A DNA stretch of 64,000 bases from Leptospiraceae bacterium (lineage in GTDB: Bacteria > Spirochaetota > Leptospiria > Turneriellales > Turneriellaceae). The stretch lies in assembly GCA_020440825.1 (NCBI GenBank), contig JAGRNJ010000003.1, positions 1 to 64,000 of the forward strand, in the 5' to 3' direction. The position numbers and the translations under genes are program-made. Shown in pieces: positions 29,719 through 38,276 of the stretch. A model generated the notes under the pieces. The model saw nothing but the letters and a program-made list of their open reading frames with translations. It was not told the DNA's origin and searched no databases. The first letter of the stretch is position 1, and each line of letters starts with the position of its first letter.

Positions 29719-30495
29719 ATGAAACTGACATCTATACTCATACTGACTTTTTTACTGGCAAATACTGCTGTGTCTTCCGCAGAGTCTGAAACTTCCGTTC
29801 AGGAAATAACTGTTGAAAAGGGCGAGACACTTTCAAAGATTTCTAAAAAATATCTGGATGACCCCAGCCGCTGGAAAGATCTGTTGAAATACAACAAAAT
29901 TTCAAATCCGAATTTAATCTACCCCGGGCAGAAACTGAAGGTCCCAGGTTTTCTGCAGAAAAAAGCATTAGCATCCGTAATTTTAAAACTGGGACCATCG
30001 AAATACCTAACCGAAAGCGAGAAAACCTGGAAAGAAACTTTTGTCTCACTAAAACTGTTCCGCAAAGACCAGGTGAGAACAGAAGCAAAAGGCCGCCTGC
30101 AGCTGCAGCTCAATTCACAGAGTGTTTTGAAGATAGAACCAGATTCTCTGGTTGTCATTGATGATGGCAACGCCAGCAATGCCTCTACTGCACTCAACCT
30201 TCGCCAGGGGGCTGTAATGGCAATCATTCGTAACGGCGGCCAGCCTTCCAATTTTCGTATTCGAACCCCGGCAACGGTGATGGCGGTACGTGGCACACAG
30301 TTTTTTGCTTCAACCGACGCAGCAGAATCTCTTATGGGGGTTCATGAAGGTAAGGTCAATGTTTCTGCGCAAGGCAAAGATGTTCTGGTCCCGGAAGGTT
30401 ATGGCACCAGGGTTGAAACGGGGAAAGCTCCTGAAGAACCATTCAAACTGATCGATGCCCCGATTATACTGGAACCTTCAGCTTCGAATGAATAA
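29719..30495 (+). CDS. LysM-FecR domain periplasmic protein
   Basis: 258 residues with a signal peptide (LTSILILTFLLANTAVSSAE), a LysM domain (ITVEKGETLSKISKKYLDDPSRWKDLLKYNKISNPNLIYPGQKLKVPG split, about 28-77) and a FecR-type domain (LQLQLNSQSVLKIEPDSLVVIDD...MAIIRNGGQPSNFRIRTPATVMAVRGTQFFASTD, about 120-205). This combination occurs repeatedly in Leptospira and is predicted to bind peptidoglycan and sense or scaffold in the periplasm; its role is not established. A GAGG element precedes the ATG. The next gene starts 8 bp inside its end, and the pair lies upstream of a degenerate sensor kinase. Confidence 0.85.
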   Translation: MKLTSILILTFLLANTAVSSAESETSVQEITVEKGETLSKISKKYLDDPSRWKDLLKYNKISNPNLIYPGQKLKVPGFLQKKALASVILKLGPSKYLTESEKTWKETFVSLKLFRKDQVRTEAKGRLQLQLNSQSVLKIEPDSLVVIDDGNASNASTALNLRQGAVMAIIRNGGQPSNFRIRTPATVMAVRGTQFFASTDAAESLMGVHEGKVNVSAQGKDVLVPEGYGTRVETGKAPEEPFKLIDAPIILEPSASNE

Positions 30496-31438
30496 ATTCA
30501 GAAATTTAATCTCCTGTTCATTTAGTCGAAGAGTACTGAAAAAAAATGTCCTCATTTTTTTATTTCTTGGCACTTCGCAGATAATCCCGCAGAATGCATA
30601 TGTTGAAATCACCTTTCAAGCAGCAAATGATGCCAGTTTAACAGAAATTGAATGGCGAAATGAACCTGTAATCGACGAAGGTACCACAGGAAGGCTACAG
30701 GCAGTCACAGGCAGTCCGGTAAAGATAGAGCCTGTACCGTCGGAACCTTATTTTCGCATGCGGTCTTATGATAAATATAATATACCCGGTCTCTGGAGCA
30801 AGGTCTACAAAACAGAGTTGTTTGTCGTCTCGCCACAGAAACCGAAACCAGTATTTCGAGAGCCAGAGACACCGCTTGTCTCGGTAGTTGATTCAACCCA
30901 GCAGGAAAAATGGTACCTGCGGGGCAATGTATTTAAGGTCGAGTTTCCGCCCCAGCTGGCAGATTCAGTGTATTATAAATTGAACAATTCTGCTATCACA
31001 AAATATACTCAACCCCTGGTGTTTGAAAAACCCGGTGCCTATACTCTTGAGATGAAGGCAGTGCCTGGTGCTTCAGCCTGGGATTCTGAACAGGTTCTGT
31101 GGCAGAAAAAATTTGAATTCAATGTCGACTTGAAACCTCCGCATATAGAAATTTTTATCTTCCCGCCGTTTACCTGGCAAAAACGTAAACTCTTTCTCGA
31201 AAGCGGTACGAGAATTGAATTTCGAGTTGATGACAATGACGCAGGTCTAGAATCGGTGTTTGGCCGAATTCTGTGCGATGAAAATCAGAGCGAACCAGAG
31301 TATTCCCAATGGCCATTGCAATATGACCTGCCTCGAAATTTTGAATGTGAAAATGCTAAACTGGAATACTTTTCTCAAGATAAAGCAGGAAACAAATCCA
31401 GAGCTTACTCTTTGCCAGTTGCCATTCATACCCGTTAA
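30488..31438 (+). CDS. Periplasmic Ig-like protein of unknown function
   Basis: 316 residues from the ATG overlapping the LysM-FecR stop by 8 bp (an in-frame ATG at 30455 would lie inside the LysM-FecR gene). The N-terminus has an export signal (RVLKKNVLIFLFLGTSQIIPQ). The rest is beta-rich with two or more Ig-like units: VEITFQAANDASLTEIEWR..., FKVEFPPQLADSVYYKLN, and a C-terminal unit with YFSQDKAGNKSRAYSLP, resembling leptospiral OmpL47-type repeats. A pair of Cys residues (ILCDENQ, FECENAK) may form a disulfide. It is probably the middle gene of a three-gene envelope/signalling operon. Confidence 0.65.
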   Translation: MNKFRNLISCSFSRRVLKKNVLIFLFLGTSQIIPQNAYVEITFQAANDASLTEIEWRNEPVIDEGTTGRLQAVTGSPVKIEPVPSEPYFRMRSYDKYNIPGLWSKVYKTELFVVSPQKPKPVFREPETPLVSVVDSTQQEKWYLRGNVFKVEFPPQLADSVYYKLNNSAITKYTQPLVFEKPGAYTLEMKAVPGASAWDSEQVLWQKKFEFNVDLKPPHIEIFIFPPFTWQKRKLFLESGTRIEFRVDDNDAGLESVFGRILCDENQSEPEYSQWPLQYDLPRNFECENAKLEYFSQDKAGNKSRAYSLPVAIHTR

Positions 31439-31444
31439 TTCCTG

Positions 31445-33439
31445 ATGCGGAAAATTATTTATTACATTTTGCGGATTCCCTTACGCTGGAAATTTTTTAT
31501 TCGTCTTACAGCAATTGTTTTTGTACCGCTCATTATCTCAAATTATTTCTTCTTGCAGAGACAAAAAAAAGAAGCAGAATACTCTGCCTATGAGAAACAG
31601 TTATTAAAGCTCAAATTATTTGGTACAGAAGTAGAAAAAATATTCAATGCCGAGTCAAAACTTAAACCGGTCATATATCCCGAAATTGCAAACCTGCCCC
31701 TATCCACACAGCTGAAAAATCGTATACACCAGTATTCTGCATCACAAACCGAAGACAAAACAGATTATTATCTCATCTTTCATGAACGGGAATCTTTGAA
31801 TCTTGCGAAAGTTACCATTGGGCAGTCAATCGAGTATACGACAATACCCGCTGAAGATCTCGAAAACCTTGTCTTAAACTCAACAAACATCAGTGCAGAT
31901 GAAACTCTTTTGCTGTACACAAGTGATGGGGAACCTGTTTTTTCAAATATCCTCGAGGTAAACTTTAAGGTCCCTCTTTTGTGGCAGAAAACTATTCTCA
32001 ATTCTGAACAGAGAATATCGCCTTTCGATTCTGTAAAACGTATCAGACTGCAAGAAAAAGAACTTTTAATCGTACAGTCACGACTAAGCGCGCTGGGGTT
32101 TATTGCAGTTCTGGCAACACCCGCTGAGATTGTCTTTGCCGGAATTCAAGAACAGATACAAGAACAGTTGGTGCTTTCTGCTACAATCCTGCTACTGGTA
32201 CTTTTGATGGCATTTCTGTTATCCCGAAATGAACTGCAGTTTTTTCAGGCCTTAAAAGAGACAACCCAGGCTTTACAAAAGGCAGACTTCTCAAAAAGAT
32301 TAAAGAACACATTTTTAGACGAAAGAAGAGAAATATCGCGCAGTATCAATCAATTGCGTACCCGCCTGCAAAAAAATCATGCAGTAAACCTTGATGAGCT
32401 GCTGCAGAGTCGAACTCGCATCAATCTGATTCTCGATCTTATTGAAGAAGCAGTGATCATCTTTGATAAAAAGTATAATGTATCTGATTCTAATGCCAGA
32501 TTCAAAACGCTGATCACGACAGCATTTCAACGTGAAAATTTCAGTTCAAACATAGAAGCTTTTTTCAAAAAAATGTTTCCCGAACAACCATGGAACTCGA
32601 CCGACAGTGTCGATTTCTGCTGGATTCACCAGCCGAATTCGCGTAAAGAAGTAAAGTTCTACAGAGTCTCTGCCCGCAAAGTGACTTTTTCAAATGCTCT
32701 TGGCGATTACACTATGATGATTTTTTCTGATATCACAACGAGTGTGATGTCTGAAAAAAACCTGACAAGAGCCTCACGCATTACCGTCGAATCTAATCGA
32801 CAGAAATCTGATTTTCTCAAAAGACTGGAAAACGATATCTATCCGCCTGTTGGTAAAATAAAGAACCAGATCGAAGAAATACTAACAGCAGCAAACCACG
32901 AACAAATTCTAAAGACTGCTCATGAGATTCACGCCTCGACAGAATTGCTGCAATTCATGTTGAGAGATATTTTAGAGCTGACTAATCTCGAAGCAGGCAA
33001 ATTGCTCATTCAAAGACAACCTTTCTCATTTAGCGAAATGATTCACGAGCTTAACAATGCGGCTGTATCGATTATGACTGGCAGCCAAAGCAGACTTGAA
33101 TTGACCTTAGATTCGAAAATCCCCGACTCTCTGATTGGCGATAAAGAAACGGTAATCAATGTGCTGCTCAAGGTTCTGCAGAACCTGTATTTTTTAACCG
33201 ATCGAGGTCGCTTGAAAATCGAGATTCAGCTTGTGAATATTTCTGCCAGTTTTTGTGAAATTCTTTTCCAGATTCAAACGGTAGACCCGGTAAGAGAAGA
33301 AAGTCTCAAAAAACTCAATAACCAGTTCAATATGTCATTAACCGCAATTGAACAAATTATCGATCTCATGGGTGCTTCAATGGAAAAATCTAAAAGCGGT
33401 ATAGTCTCGCTTAAAATCAAATTTACGCTGATTGGTTAA
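31445..33439 (+). CDS. Histidine-kinase-like membrane protein lacking the phospho-acceptor His
   Basis: 664 residues. Transmembrane segment 1 (about 18-35), extracytoplasmic sensor (36-240), transmembrane segment 2 (241-259), HAMP-like linker (260-310), PAS-like domain (about 320-435), then a HisKA-like helix pair SDFLKRLENDIYPPVGKIKN and an ATPase-like region. At the position of the canonical His of SHEIRTP-type H-boxes stands Asn463 (codon AAC). The ATP lid is also eroded: the G1 motif DxGxG is missing and GLGLAI is replaced by MSLTAIEQI, although the N-box Asn may remain. Such proteins are pseudokinases that bind or modulate rather than autophosphorylate. It is 6 bp after the Ig-like gene and overlaps the convergent EAL gene by 17 bp. 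Confidence 0.8.
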   Translation: MRKIIYYILRIPLRWKFFIRLTAIVFVPLIISNYFFLQRQKKEAEYSAYEKQLLKLKLFGTEVEKIFNAESKLKPVIYPEIANLPLSTQLKNRIHQYSASQTEDKTDYYLIFHERESLNLAKVTIGQSIEYTTIPAEDLENLVLNSTNISADETLLLYTSDGEPVFSNILEVNFKVPLLWQKTILNSEQRISPFDSVKRIRLQEKELLIVQSRLSALGFIAVLATPAEIVFAGIQEQIQEQLVLSATILLLVLLMAFLLSRNELQFFQALKETTQALQKADFSKRLKNTFLDERREISRSINQLRTRLQKNHAVNLDELLQSRTRINLILDLIEEAVIIFDKKYNVSDSNARFKTLITTAFQRENFSSNIEAFFKKMFPEQPWNSTDSVDFCWIHQPNSRKEVKFYRVSARKVTFSNALGDYTMMIFSDITTSVMSEKNLTRASRITVESNRQKSDFLKRLENDIYPPVGKIKNQIEEILTAANHEQILKTAHEIHASTELLQFMLRDILELTNLEAGKLLIQRQPFSFSEMIHELNNAAVSIMTGSQSRLELTLDSKIPDSLIGDKETVINVLLKVLQNLYFLTDRGRLKIEIQLVNISASFCEILFQIQTVDPVREESLKKLNNQFNMSLTAIEQIIDLMGASMEKSKSGIVSLKIKFTLIG

Positions 33440-34715
33440 GTTCTTCTTGATTTTCTTCGGCCAGACTTTTAAGTCTGAAAAAGTCTGAATACACCGATAT
33501 ATCCGCCGGTGATGACAGGCAAAACCCTTGCAGCAACTGGGTTCCACTGCGTTGTGCGATCGCCAGGTCGTCTGATGTTTCTACCCCGTTTACAATTGTA
33601 TGAATACCAAGTACTTGTACTTCGTGAATCATCTTGTTTAATATCTCTATACCTTTCGTACTTTTGCGAACCCGGCGAATCACAGAACGACTGAACTTTA
33701 CAAATTCTGGTTGAACAAGTTTTATTTTCTGAAGTGAAACTATACTGGGCGAGTATCCATCCAACCCAAATCGAATTCCCGATGCTCGTAGTTTATCAAA
33801 CTCACTGGCGATTTTTTCTCTGCTCAAAACAGCTTTATAATCATAGAGCTCAAAGCGAATAATATTTATATCAACTTTGAATTTCTCAAAGATCGACAGT
33901 ATTTTCAGCTGAAATTCATGGTCTAAGAGCACAACAGCAGGAATATTGAGAATGAAAAATAAATTTTCAATATGCAAAGCATTATACTGTTGCAGTTTTT
34001 TCAATAAAGAAGTTATCAGTTTTTCTGTGAATTCTGACATATACCCTTCTTTTTGAATAGAAGGAATATAATGGTGAGGCAATTCTTTGTTCCCGTTGAT
34101 TCTTACCCTGCGTGAGAGTATTTCACCGGCACACATTTTCAAATCCATAGAAGAGAAAATCGGTTGAAAATAAATTCGAAAATCTGATTCAAGAAGCTGT
34201 CTTGCATCTTCTCTGGAATATGTTGTAACAGGTCTTCCAGGGTTTACACTTTCGCGATTGTGCCTTGAATTTCGATAGCGGCGAAAATAAGTTCTCACCT
34301 GCCTTATTTTTCTGGCAGATATATCAGAATCTTTCAGAGAATGTATGTAATCAATCCAGGCCCACAGGTTTTCAAAGTAAACTGAAGCCTTGGTATTCTT
34401 ACCTTCGAAAGAGAGCATTGCATCGAGTTCATTTACATAGAAAGCTGAAAGTGCTTTCTTCTGTTCTGCTACTGAAATCTGATACATTCGCTGCCGGGTA
34501 TCCAGTTTACAGAGCTCACGAATCGACTGTCTTAAAATGAATGGAATGTTTGTACCGATTCCATAAATTATGAGATCAGGCTTGATCAACAATGCCATTT
34601 CTGTGTTGAAAATGTCTAGCGGAATACTGACAATCTCAACATTCAAGCCAGAAAAACCATCTTTACAGATGCGCAGCACAGATCGGTTTGCATAAGCAAT
34701 CAGTACCTTTCTCAT
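33423..34715 (-). CDS. Degenerate EAL-domain protein with pseudo-receiver head
   Basis: 430 residues. The N-terminus MRKVLIAYANRSVLRICKDGF resembles a receiver fold but lacks the acidic pocket. Residues about 175-415 are EAL-like: QPIFSSMDLKMCAGEILSR (E198-I-L at the EAL site), ILNIP (Asn257), FELYD (Glu289), LLDGYSPS where DDFGTG is expected (only Asp319 kept), KFSRS where KIDRS is expected, and IVNGVET where AEGVET is expected (Glu to Asn376). Loss of several metal/catalytic residues indicates no c-di-GMP phosphodiesterase activity. It could still bind c-di-GMP or act by protein contact. It is followed upstream by a NarL regulator on the same strand (94-bp gap), so it may be its output. Confidence 0.8.
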   Translation of the reverse strand: MRKVLIAYANRSVLRICKDGFSGLNVEIVSIPLDIFNTEMALLIKPDLIIYGIGTNIPFILRQSIRELCKLDTRQRMYQISVAEQKKALSAFYVNELDAMLSFEGKNTKASVYFENLWAWIDYIHSLKDSDISARKIRQVRTYFRRYRNSRHNRESVNPGRPVTTYSREDARQLLESDFRIYFQPIFSSMDLKMCAGEILSRRVRINGNKELPHHYIPSIQKEGYMSEFTEKLITSLLKKLQQYNALHIENLFFILNIPAVVLLDHEFQLKILSIFEKFKVDINIIRFELYDYKAVLSREKIASEFDKLRASGIRFGLDGYSPSIVSLQKIKLVQPEFVKFSRSVIRRVRKSTKGIEILNKMIHEVQVLGIHTIVNGVETSDDLAIAQRSGTQLLQGFCLSSPADISVYSDFFRLKSLAEENQEELNQSA

Positions 34716-34809: not shown

Positions 34810-35475
34810 TCAGTTATTTTGAGAACTCAAAACCCATTGCACGGCATTTTTTGTGAGTTCCCTTGCATTTTTAAGACCAAGTTTTTCTTTTATATTCTGA
34901 CTGTGGGTTTCTATGGTGCTCACACTCAGCAGCAGCTTTTCTGCTATCTCTCTGGTCGAAAGCCCGCGACCAATCATTTCATATACCTGCAGTTCACGAG
35001 AGGTTAACAGTGAAACCGTATCTTCAGCTTCATCGACACCCATCACAAATATTTTATTCAAGATCTGGGAAGCCAGTTCTTCTTTGAGATACAGTTTTCC
35101 GGCCAGTATGGTTTCAATTGCAGAAATTATTTTCTCACCGGCCTCATCTTTCATAAGATAACCCCGTGCCCCTGCTTTCAAGGCCCTTTCTGCATAAATA
35201 TTTTCTTCATAGCGTGACATGACAAGCATCAGTGGCGGATTGCTTTCATTCTTGAGAGTTTTCACCAAATCAAGACCAGATTCATTCTTTTTGAGAGAGA
35301 TATCAATGATAACAAGATGTATGTTTTTATCTCTGATCTGCTCAACGCTTGAATTGATCGTTTCAGCAGAGCCTGTAACCTCAAATCTTGGGTCTGCATT
35401 GATGATGCTTGCCAGACCTGCAATCACAACAGGATGATCGTCGACAATAAATACCTTTATTTTTTCAGTACTCAT
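34810..35475 (-). CDS. NarL/FixJ-family response regulator
   Basis: 221 residues. Receiver domain (1-120) with acidic pocket FIVDDHP (Asp12, Asp13), phosphorylation site Asp58 (LVIIDISL) and Lys in GYLMKDEAG. A LuxR-type HTH follows (about 150-212): LTSRELQVYEMIGRGLSTREIAEKLLLSVSTIETHSQNIKEKLG. It overlaps the kinase gene by 4 bp (ATGA), so the two are translationally coupled and very probably cognate. The kinase is of the HisKA_3 type that normally pairs with NarL regulators. Confidence 0.94.
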   Translation of the reverse strand: MSTEKIKVFIVDDHPVVIAGLASIINADPRFEVTGSAETINSSVEQIRDKNIHLVIIDISLKKNESGLDLVKTLKNESNPPLMLVMSRYEENIYAERALKAGARGYLMKDEAGEKIISAIETILAGKLYLKEELASQILNKIFVMGVDEAEDTVSLLTSRELQVYEMIGRGLSTREIAEKLLLSVSTIETHSQNIKEKLGLKNARELTKNAVQWVLSSQNN

Positions 35476-38276
35476 TGAACCTCTACCTTCTCTGAAATTG
35501 GTATGGTCATAAAATCGGGAGCATACCCGATAGCAAGCCGGCCACCTTTTTCGCCAAAAGATAATTCAAAAGAGGCCCCAATCTGCTGTGCCCGATACTT
35601 CATTGTTCGAATGCCAATACCGCCGGCCGAGGCCATTGTATCTTCAGATTTTCCATTGTCATACAGCACTATATTTAGACGACCCTGTTCAAAGAAAAGT
35701 TCGCAGTATATAAATGTAGCTTTACCATGCTTTACTGAGTTTGTCAAAAACTCCTGTATGATATAAAACAGGTGCTTTGTATGCGCTACAGGGAGCTTGA
35801 TTTCACCTGCCCGATTGCGCATTTGAGTTTCGATGCCCAATAGACGCTCAGCGTCAATAAAATTTTGTGTTATCACTTCGTTTAAAGTAATACTCTGTAA
35901 ATGCAGCGGAGTTAAACCTCTGGCAAAGCGCCGCATCTTGAAATTAGTTTCATTTACCAGCTCAATCAAATTACGAATATCTTCCCCGAATTTGGTTTCA
36001 TCGCCTTCTGTTTGAACCTTCTTAAGTAGAGAGTTTAAAAACATCGACACACCTACCAACTGTTGGCCAAGACCGTCGTGCAGGTCCTGGCCTATCTGGT
36101 TGCGCTCATTATCTGCAACTTCCAGCAGATCTCGCTCGAGAGACCGGGTTTCTGTGATATCTTCTCCTAAAATTCCTATTTTACCGTCTTTCTTCAAGAA
36201 ACCGACTAGAGATACGTAACGTGTCTGCTGCTCTGTTTCAAATGAAAACTCAAGCCGGGTTTCAGCCTGTTCTTCATTTACAGTTTCAACCAGTTTTTGA
36301 AGAGAACTGCCTGTGCTTAAACCATTCCCGAACCTCAAATCTTGCAAATTGCTGCCAATCGCATTTTCAACGTTCAATTCAAGAATTCGCTTTGCAGAAT
36401 TATTATAATCTGCGAGAATAAACCCTGAATCATATTTTTCAAAAATCATGAGTGCCGATGGCATTCGCTGAAAAGTTTCTGCCAGCTCATCGGTCACTTT
36501 TTTCTGTACTGAAATGTCTTCAACGAGCAATACCGCACGGTTGCCCGAATCTGAAATTTCTGGCATTTGGGAAATATACAGCATAACCCAGATTTCTCGA
36601 TCTCGTTCATTCGAAATTCTCAGACTGATACGGGTTTTGCCAATATTATGTCGGGTATTCGCAAATAAGATGCTGTCAAATTCTTCGAGATCTTCCTTTA
36701 CAATTAAATCCCGTAACGGTTTGTCATGAATATCATGCAAATCATGACCGGTGAGTTCAAGAAATTTTTTATTCGCGATTTGCACATTGCCTGTCTCGAG
36801 TGAAATCACAATAATGCCAAATGCAGTGTTGTCAAAAATTTCTCTGAGTAAGGTTTCACTTTCTCTCAATTCAAGACTTGAGATTTTTCTTTCGGTAATG
36901 TCATACAAGATACATTCAAAACGCGGAGCCCCGAATCCGCTTCTCACATTGGGAAAACCCGTAAACTCAAACCAGCGAATTTCGCCGGTCCGGGTATGCC
37001 CCAATAATTCAAGACTGAATTCACTTTTATTTCCCGCAATTGCGGCATCGAGCTTTTCTTGAAAACGCGGAATTTCTGTGGCATCGAATAATGCTGAGAG
37101 ACTGTTTCCCTTGAGAAAGAAGTCATCCGTCTGCCAGCCTATACTTGCAACATTGTCAGATACAAAGTCAACCGGCCACGGCCTCAAAGTAGAGCAGCGA
37201 AATAGAACAATCGGTGAGTGTAAAATTATTTTTTCTGTCTGCTCGAGTTTTAACTGTAATTCTTTAAAACTCGAAATGTCCTGAAATCCGTAAATTATTT
37301 TATGCGGTTCACCGGTAGTCGTAGTTGAAAAAACCTTGCGCACCAATCTCAAATGTACCCATTTTTTCTCTGGATGTTTGAAGCGAAGTTGATAGTTGGT
37401 TGGCGATTCTTCAGATTCATTTTTAACCAGTTCTCGAAACTTTACCAGATCATCAGGGTGTACCAGCTCATCTGGTAAATGAAAACTGTTTAATTTTTCC
37501 AGAGTGTAACCGAGAATTGATTCACCCCTGGGATTCATAGAGGCGAACTTCAGGGTCTGGGTATCAAACAGACCAAGACCAACTGGGGCAGAGTCATATA
37601 TTTTCTGATCCTGTTCACTCTGCAATTGCCGACGCGATTCCAGAGTCAAAATTGCATGAAATAAAACCCCGAATGCAAACAGGATTGTTAAAATCAGATT
37701 CAATGCAAAGCCGGGAGCCATAGCCCAGGCCAAATGCTGCACAAACGGAAAATCAAGACGGTGAAGACCATGAATTATCAATACTATTGCAATTGTCCGT
37801 TGCACAATTGTAACAATATTTGCGACCATAGGCCAACGCCATATAACAATACCCGAAATAATGTTCATGATTCCGGCAAGAACCATGGAGACTGACTGCA
37901 GTGCATTGTCTCGAAAGAAAAAATGCAGAGCTGCTGAAAAAATAAAATAGCCAAAAAACAGCAAAGAAATATCAGAATTTGAAAACCTTTGCTTAACATG
38001 ATCGAGAGCGGCAACAAATACCAGCATCGCACTCATGGTGGTGGTAATGTCCCAGATAAAATCTGTCCATGGAAATGCAGTACCCGGTAGAATCAGTAAA
38101 TTCAGAAATCGTGCCGATGACACAAAAAAGCTGAGAGAAATAAAGAAATTGAAACGGGTCGACAGAATTCGGCGATATGCATAGAGAGTAATGATGCCGA
38201 GCACTATGTTTATAGAAAACGTAATAATAAACAGCAGGCGTATCGGGAAAATCAGCTCTGGTGCAGTGGCAAGCAT
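35472..38276 (-). CDS. Multi-PAS membrane sensor histidine kinase (HisKA_3 type)
   Basis: 934 residues. An N-terminal membrane module of seven hydrophobic segments (about 8-215), then at least four PAS domains (about 225-345, 350-465, 470-585, 590-705; note repeated WVHLRL, GEIRWFEFTG, DREIWVMLYIS strands), a DHp helix with His733 in DNERNQIGQDLHDGLGQQL, and an HATPase domain (QEFLTNSVKHG N-box, GGIGIRTMKYRAQQIGA). The lid is shorter than usual, as in the NarX/LiaS class. Substrate or signal cannot be read. The number of PAS modules suggests redox or ligand sensing. It is the first gene of the three-gene unit with the NarL regulator and probably the EAL protein. Confidence 0.92.
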   Translation of the reverse strand: MLATAPELIFPIRLLFIITFSINIVLGIITLYAYRRILSTRFNFFISLSFFVSSARFLNLLILPGTAFPWTDFIWDITTTMSAMLVFVAALDHVKQRFSNSDISLLFFGYFIFSAALHFFFRDNALQSVSMVLAGIMNIISGIVIWRWPMVANIVTIVQRTIAIVLIIHGLHRLDFPFVQHLAWAMAPGFALNLILTILFAFGVLFHAILTLESRRQLQSEQDQKIYDSAPVGLGLFDTQTLKFASMNPRGESILGYTLEKLNSFHLPDELVHPDDLVKFRELVKNESEESPTNYQLRFKHPEKKWVHLRLVRKVFSTTTTGEPHKIIYGFQDISSFKELQLKLEQTEKIILHSPIVLFRCSTLRPWPVDFVSDNVASIGWQTDDFFLKGNSLSALFDATEIPRFQEKLDAAIAGNKSEFSLELLGHTRTGEIRWFEFTGFPNVRSGFGAPRFECILYDITERKISSLELRESETLLREIFDNTAFGIIVISLETGNVQIANKKFLELTGHDLHDIHDKPLRDLIVKEDLEEFDSILFANTRHNIGKTRISLRISNERDREIWVMLYISQMPEISDSGNRAVLLVEDISVQKKVTDELAETFQRMPSALMIFEKYDSGFILADYNNSAKRILELNVENAIGSNLQDLRFGNGLSTGSSLQKLVETVNEEQAETRLEFSFETEQQTRYVSLVGFLKKDGKIGILGEDITETRSLERDLLEVADNERNQIGQDLHDGLGQQLVGVSMFLNSLLKKVQTEGDETKFGEDIRNLIELVNETNFKMRRFARGLTPLHLQSITLNEVITQNFIDAERLLGIETQMRNRAGEIKLPVAHTKHLFYIIQEFLTNSVKHGKATFIYCELFFEQGRLNIVLYDNGKSEDTMASAGGIGIRTMKYRAQQIGASFELSFGEKGGRLAIGYAPDFMTIPISEKVEVQ

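Follow-up and report, generated by a model that had tools for sequence, protein, structure and literature searches.

How a membrane protein built like a sensor histidine kinase may take part in envelope sensing when its catalytic residues have been lost is the question raised by three consecutive genes of a Leptospiraceae bacterium (Turneriellaceae). The genes lie in a stretch of 64,000 nucleotides which was analyzed as a whole and is called the window here (contig JAGRNJ010000003.1 of GenBank assembly GCA_020440825.1, positions 1 to 64,000); the source genome is a 3.78-Mb draft in 173 contigs and is 88 % complete. They encode a LysM-FecR protein, an immunoglobulin-like (Ig-like) protein and a membrane pseudokinase, hereafter the sensor. 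We put the chances at about even that these genes form an envelope-sensing unit whose dead kinase end would govern a kinase or regulator, its partner, through protein contact. Compared genomes and sequence places are given under our own G and L labels.

Loss of the catalytic residues and apparent retention of the fold

The three genes are co-directional on the forward strand and form one operon-like unit. The stop codon of the LysM-FecR gene ends at 30495 and the Ig-like gene opens with ATG at 30488, while the Ig-like gene ends at 31438 and the sensor gene starts at 31445. The overlap of 8 bp and the gap of 6 bp, by which a preliminary description of this DNA had linked the genes, are confirmed exactly by these coordinates. 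An alternative longer Ig-like reading frame, starting at 30455, is likewise open. A sequencing error or frameshift in the sensor gene was considered and ruled out by the open frame of 664 codons, the lack of stops and the similar codon-position GC of both halves.

A profile was built from the intact kinases of G026, G019 and G025, and kinase domains from the window genome and the relatives were collected, with domains below 30 bits and duplicate domains dropped, and aligned with the window protein. The resulting motif alignment has 30 rows (29 controls and the window protein), and the controls, being picked by similarity to kinases, are biased towards intact ones; L236 is absent from the alignment and L237 has no residue at the His column. 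The H-box reads LEND-IYPP in the window protein against MSHE-IRTP in kinases, so that Asn463 stands where all 28 controls with a residue at that column have the phospho-acceptor His. There are 18 HisKA places in the window genome, and each of the 16 above the Pfam cut-off is included in the controls and carries the His. The first Asn of the N-box is replaced by Lys (Asn in 27/27 controls), the G1 motif (DxGxG, its Asp present in 28/28 controls) is absent, the glycines of G2 (GxGxG) are gone, and a deletion has taken out the ATP lid. The second Asn of the N-box is kept, as is the acidic residue beside the acceptor position. An alternative acceptor was looked for in the first DHp helix (residues 430-482 of the model), which is free of His; residues His 485, 493 and 496 are found in the turn and where the second helix starts.

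The missing acceptor His of the preliminary description is therefore borne out, no substitute is found in the first helix, where an intact His would have spoken against it, and the loss goes beyond what it had noticed, as the ATP-binding motifs are gone too. Set beside an active HisKA/HATPase_c kinase, the sensor lacks the acceptor His and the ATP-site motifs and has, in the model, the DHp-CA fold. The alignment supports the view that the third protein is without the requirements of canonical histidine phosphotransfer, and neither normal ATP binding nor acceptance of phosphate is to be expected of it.

The retention of the fold was analyzed in a core-column alignment that set 27 controls beside the window protein (28 rows in total), L228 and L237 (partial) having been dropped. 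Of 76 core columns the window sensor fills 64, and 57 of these carry a hydrophobic residue; among the controls, left out one at a time, the hydrophobic fraction of the core runs from 0.83 upwards with a median of 0.97. Near-invariant polar, Gly, Pro or Phe columns are kept at 4 of 15 in the window protein and at 11 to 15 in the controls. A shuffle of the hydrophobic core is a lenient test, since the alignment is itself biased towards core matches, and the leave-one-out comparison and the drift simulations are the fairer tests. None of 900 neutral-drift simulations that lost as many catalytic columns stayed free of stops (minimum 2), and again none of 900 did when the lid deletion was allowed free; stops numbered about 10. 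The 57/64 core columns were reached by 5/900 and 15/900 runs respectively, each with stops. As the core columns were kept and the drift runs were never stop-free, the sensor end was probably under selection for its fold through at least a large part of the period of catalytic loss, and recent decay is compatible with this. A selected function of the dead-kinase end is thereby supported.

The AlphaFold2 model of the sensor (mean pLDDT 74, CA part mostly 75-95) has a DHp hairpin and a lid-less CA-type fold. The predicted DHp-CA part matches GacS (Z 18.7 over 241 residues), DivL (Z 17.2) and RetS (Z 16.5), and the CA domain superposes on that of ETR1 with a root-mean-square deviation of 2.6 over 137 residues; families that are not in the fold-search lists are not thereby excluded.

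Distribution of the unit and exchange of its output

Full-length LysM-FecR homologues were found at 25 places in 21 of the 48 genomes of the class, and the surroundings of all 25 were read. An Ig gene follows in 11 genomes (G000, G003, G005, G018, G019, G020, G025, G026, G035, G040, G047), the member of G026 being divergent (E 1.7e-25 with a profile that excluded it). The LysM-FecR gene, the Ig gene and a co-directional membrane sensor gene stand together in seven of the 48 (G000, G040, G020, G019, G025, G035, G047), with the same gene order and short gaps (-4 to +45 bp) in the last six. Two further genomes are compatible with this arrangement, G026 with a convergent, adjoining sensor gene and G013 with both genes at contig ends. 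In G003, G005 and G018 the first two genes occur without the sensor, and the LysM-FecR gene has no Ig gene after it in the g5 genomes (G004, G007-G012); the two are about 2 kb apart on opposite strands in G007 and on different contigs or far away in the others. The second LysM-FecR copies of G019, G025, G035 and G047 lie outside the unit. A LysM-FecR gene of G037 precedes one whose product matches the Ig profile weakly (1.9e-10) and was not counted. As side observations, a REC-SpoIIE phosphatase takes the place of the Ig protein after the LysM-FecR gene in G039 (L084:7457-9518), and LysM-FecR homologues outside the spirochaetes, nearly full-length and with 28-33 % identity, occur in L131-L136 (Elusimicrobia and Caldiserica contigs).

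None of the other 12 genomes in the window's family has the sensor gene (E 1e-15), and the unit is therefore not fixed in that family. Linkage of the three genes as a unit, as first proposed, holds and recurs in other families of the class. The genes occurring separately in relatives had been named as a finding that would speak against it; this occurs in part, in the 12 family genomes lacking the sensor and in the g5 genomes.

Relatives of the window sensor found by BLAST are in G040 (5e-28), G026 (2e-21) and G013 (5e-17), and G020 joined through G040 and G026. The output differs within this family: a SpoIIE phosphatase in G040, G013 and G020, a hybrid kinase with REC in G026, and the dead kinase in the window. 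The sensors of G019 and G025 are hybrid kinases, to which the sensors of G035 and G047, truncated at contig ends, are closely homologous. All four genomes have a regulator gene a short way upstream, LuxR-type by Pfam in G035, the one tested. A comparison by hhalign did not show the G019-type periplasmic domain to be homologous to the one in the window sensor (probability 0.9 %, E 0.059). SpoIIE matches number 33 in the window genome, so the absent phosphatase output does not come from a shortage of such enzymes. Signalling without phosphotransfer, as it was first described, thus fits the window version with its lost catalytic parts and does not hold for the module, since relatives have apparently live SpoIIE or hybrid-kinase outputs. 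In line with that description, the parts of the unit are envelope and membrane proteins.

Proposed mechanism and competing explanations

In the mechanism that we propose, the LysM-FecR protein would sit on peptidoglycan with the Ig-like protein beside it, and the sensor, with its two transmembrane helices, would read the state of both by its periplasmic domain. The signal would be relayed through the HAMP and PAS-like region into the DHp-CA module. Relatives that retain the sensor have a cytoplasmic end resembling a working enzyme; in the window the pseudo-histidine kinase may keep its dimer and CA fold and would most likely dock on a partner histidine kinase or response regulator, altering the activity of that partner. 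The unit, the catalytic loss, the retained hydrophobic core and the exchange of outputs are read from the sequences, and to these the mechanism adds presumed periplasmic contacts among the three proteins, dimerisation and the partner. Contact-based control of a partner, as reported for RocA with CovS, for DivL and for an evolved ChrS variant, suits a dead kinase end which keeps the dimer fold. The full proposal, that is, a conserved periplasmic sensing unit with a lineage-exchangeable output, where here a fold-keeping dead kinase would feed the phosphorelay of another kinase by contact alone, is possible rather than probable in our judgment.

Several points weigh against this proposal. No partner protein was identified. 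The periplasmic domain of the G019, G025, G035 and G047 sensors is not demonstrably homologous to the one in the window sensor, the intact kinases in the AlphaFold2 alignment impose part of the predicted fold, and the dead-kinase version has no orthologue in any other genome searched. The tree gave no resolved place or origin for the dead kinase domain, whose branch (8.27 against a median of 1.6) is expected under relaxed constraint too. That long branch, the absence of the sensor gene from the rest of the family, and the alignment of the intact hybrid kinase of G026 over window residues 13-588 would all suit a decaying remnant of a hybrid sensor kinase, which would be disappearing after the loss of its His, its ATP site and its REC. 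We regard this as doubtful, for the frame of 664 codons is open where drift yields about 10 stops, and the core columns stay in the range of live kinases while those of catalytic type are lost. The same hydrophobic core, suggesting that the DHp-CA end itself was selected, argues against a scaffold from periplasm to cytoplasm in which only the sensor, HAMP and PAS-like parts matter and the kinase-like end is a structural cap; this is improbable in our view, even though the sensor part is what the homologues have in common across outputs.

A pair that reads cyclic di-GMP would be formed if the sensor acted with the degenerate EAL-domain protein encoded next to it. The two genes are tail-to-tail neighbours with a 17-bp overlap, and the EAL domain lacks three acidic residues relative to YahA; as they are on opposite strands, the EAL gene follows a kinase and regulator pair on its own strand, and no EAL match at E 1e-20 was found in the other 47 genomes of the class, such a pair is very improbable. 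A conserved partnership with this protein was rejected on the same search, and the cyclic-nucleotide link which the preliminary description had wished to see checked was not found. Hardly any credence is given to the idea that the sensor retains kinase activity by way of an unusual acceptor and nucleotide site: His 493 and 496 in the second DHp helix and the kept second Asn and acidic residue would allow it, but the sensor has lost the first N-box Asn, the Asp and Gly of G1 and the G2 lid, and its first helix is without His.

Features of the unit, neighbouring genes and known systems

The coordinates of the features are collected in Table 1.

Table 1. Features of the three-gene unit and its convergent neighbour in the window
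Feature	Position	Strand	Basis
LysM-FecR protein, 258 aa	29719..30495	+	Probable signal peptide, peptidoglycan-binding LysM, FecR domain
Ig-like protein, 316 aa, OmpL47/LBF_2017-like	30488..31438	+	NCBIfam NF047446 and NF047607, AlphaFold2 model
Membrane sensor, putative pseudo-histidine kinase, 664 aa	31445..33439	+	Alignment, NCBIfam, AlphaFold2, fold search
First transmembrane helix, residues 19-37	31499..31555	+	Hydropathy
Second transmembrane helix, residues 242-260; periplasmic sensor between both helices	32168..32224	+	Hydropathy
HAMP-like linker, residues 268-309	32246..32371	+	Pfam HAMP E 0.0025, below cut-off
DHp-like helical hairpin, residues 430-516	32732..32992	+	AlphaFold2 helices 430-482 and 486-516; hmmsearch match 448-618
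Codon of Asn463, replacing phospho-acceptor His	32831..32833	+	Alignment with controls
Degenerate CA (ATPase) domain, residues 521-664	33005..33436	+	Motif losses; fold match to ETR1 CA
EAL-domain protein, convergent with the pseudokinase	33423-34715	-	Comparison with YahA

The first protein matches LysM (4.5e-14) and FecR (9.3e-18) in Pfam. For the second no Pfam family was above cut-off; its nearest NCBIfam domains are those of Leptospira OmpL47 (1.5e-9) and LBF_2017 (1.2e-7), below their cut-offs, and its homologue in G020 is above cut-off for NF047446 and NF047607. Its AlphaFold2 model is all-beta (pLDDT 86.6), with Foldseek matches of Ig and fibronectin-III type such as SiiE. The Ig-like character which was first described is thus backed by the model, and secretion, the other half of that description, is only plausible, as no hydropathy threshold was passed at the N-terminus. 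The shared domain is named 'OmpL47-type beta-barrel domain' in NCBIfam, yet the window protein is modelled as Ig/fibronectin-III-like, and the barrel name may be misleading.

The sensor gave no Pfam family above cut-off, HAMP being sub-threshold only. Its nearest NCBIfam entries are the kinases BarA, TorS and PnpS (1e-14 to 1e-10), far under the cut-offs, and its profile matched PDB sequences weakly, the best (E 0.0019) being a CovS/VicK-like kinase in the HAMP/PAS region. A third, weaker hydropathy stretch (residues 216-234) is also over threshold.

Compared with YahA, the EAL protein has Gly for the second Asp of DD, Ser for the Asp of KxD and Asn for the Glu of AEGVE, and from these residues it looks catalytically dead; an EAL gene near the operon of G003 is not its orthologue and looks intact. 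The genes of a LuxR-type response regulator and a PAS-rich HisKA_3 kinase (34810-38276, reverse strand), overlapping by 4 bp, precede the EAL gene on the same strand, and the three are likely one unit. This regulator (34810-35475, reverse strand) is the one nearest to the three-gene unit and overlaps its own kinase gene. A promoter and terminator scan gave 20 promoter-like sites against a shuffle mean of 8.2, scattered on both strands, and was not used.

The closest known operon is BiofilmReg of the Burkholderiales, with a response regulator, a LysM-FecR protein (COG4254), a CHASE2-PAS histidine kinase and DUF4136 (PMC5192318). The likeness lies in the tight linkage of a LysM-FecR gene to a membrane sensor kinase gene, here with the Ig gene between, and in G019, G025, G035 and G047 also in the regulator gene nearby upstream. 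That source describes the kinase as such, gives it a CHASE2 sensor and names no Ig protein, whereas in the window unit an Ig protein is present, the sensor is of another kind and the kinase end is dead. No CHASE2 match was found by Pfam at E 1 in the window sensor or at E 0.01 in six relatives, and the window unit has no response regulator gene, unlike BiofilmReg. The association of LysM-FecR with sensor kinases is thus not new (PMC5192318); no paper describing the spirochaete unit was found among titles and abstract openings, in a coverage that leaves out most subscription journals.

Among pseudokinases, RocA of group A Streptococcus is a membrane protein whose CA domain lacks the kinase residues and which acts through the true kinase CovS (PMC7028121). 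The window sensor resembles it in these losses; RocA keeps the DHp His and has six putative transmembrane segments and a known partner, whereas the sensor has Asn463 and two transmembrane helices. DivL of Caulobacter works without kinase activity and keeps its N, G1, F and G2 boxes (PMC4211667); the acceptor His is replaced in both, by Tyr in DivL and Asn in the sensor, which has lost most of those boxes. For an evolved ChrS variant control by contact is reported, with no contact seen by two-hybrid for the truncated form (PMC9491836). RetS of Pseudomonas, compared by fold only, is likewise a kinase-like module that regulates another kinase, GacS. RetS carries REC domains, and we know of no LysM-FecR/Ig operon with RocA. 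Unlike the window sensor, RetS is described as a hybrid kinase. Set beside pseudo-histidine kinases of the DivL and RocA type, the loss is seen in the alignment, and the putative retention under selection draws on the core columns and the drift simulations.

LysM-FecR proteins beside sensor kinases have been described in the Burkholderiales, and pseudo-histidine kinases are on record for a small number of model systems. The OmpL47/LBF_2017-like Ig proteins gain from this unit a suggested role as partners of sensors. One envelope unit can be compared here with phosphatase, live kinase and dead kinase outputs, which raises the question of what its input is and how its output changed in evolution.

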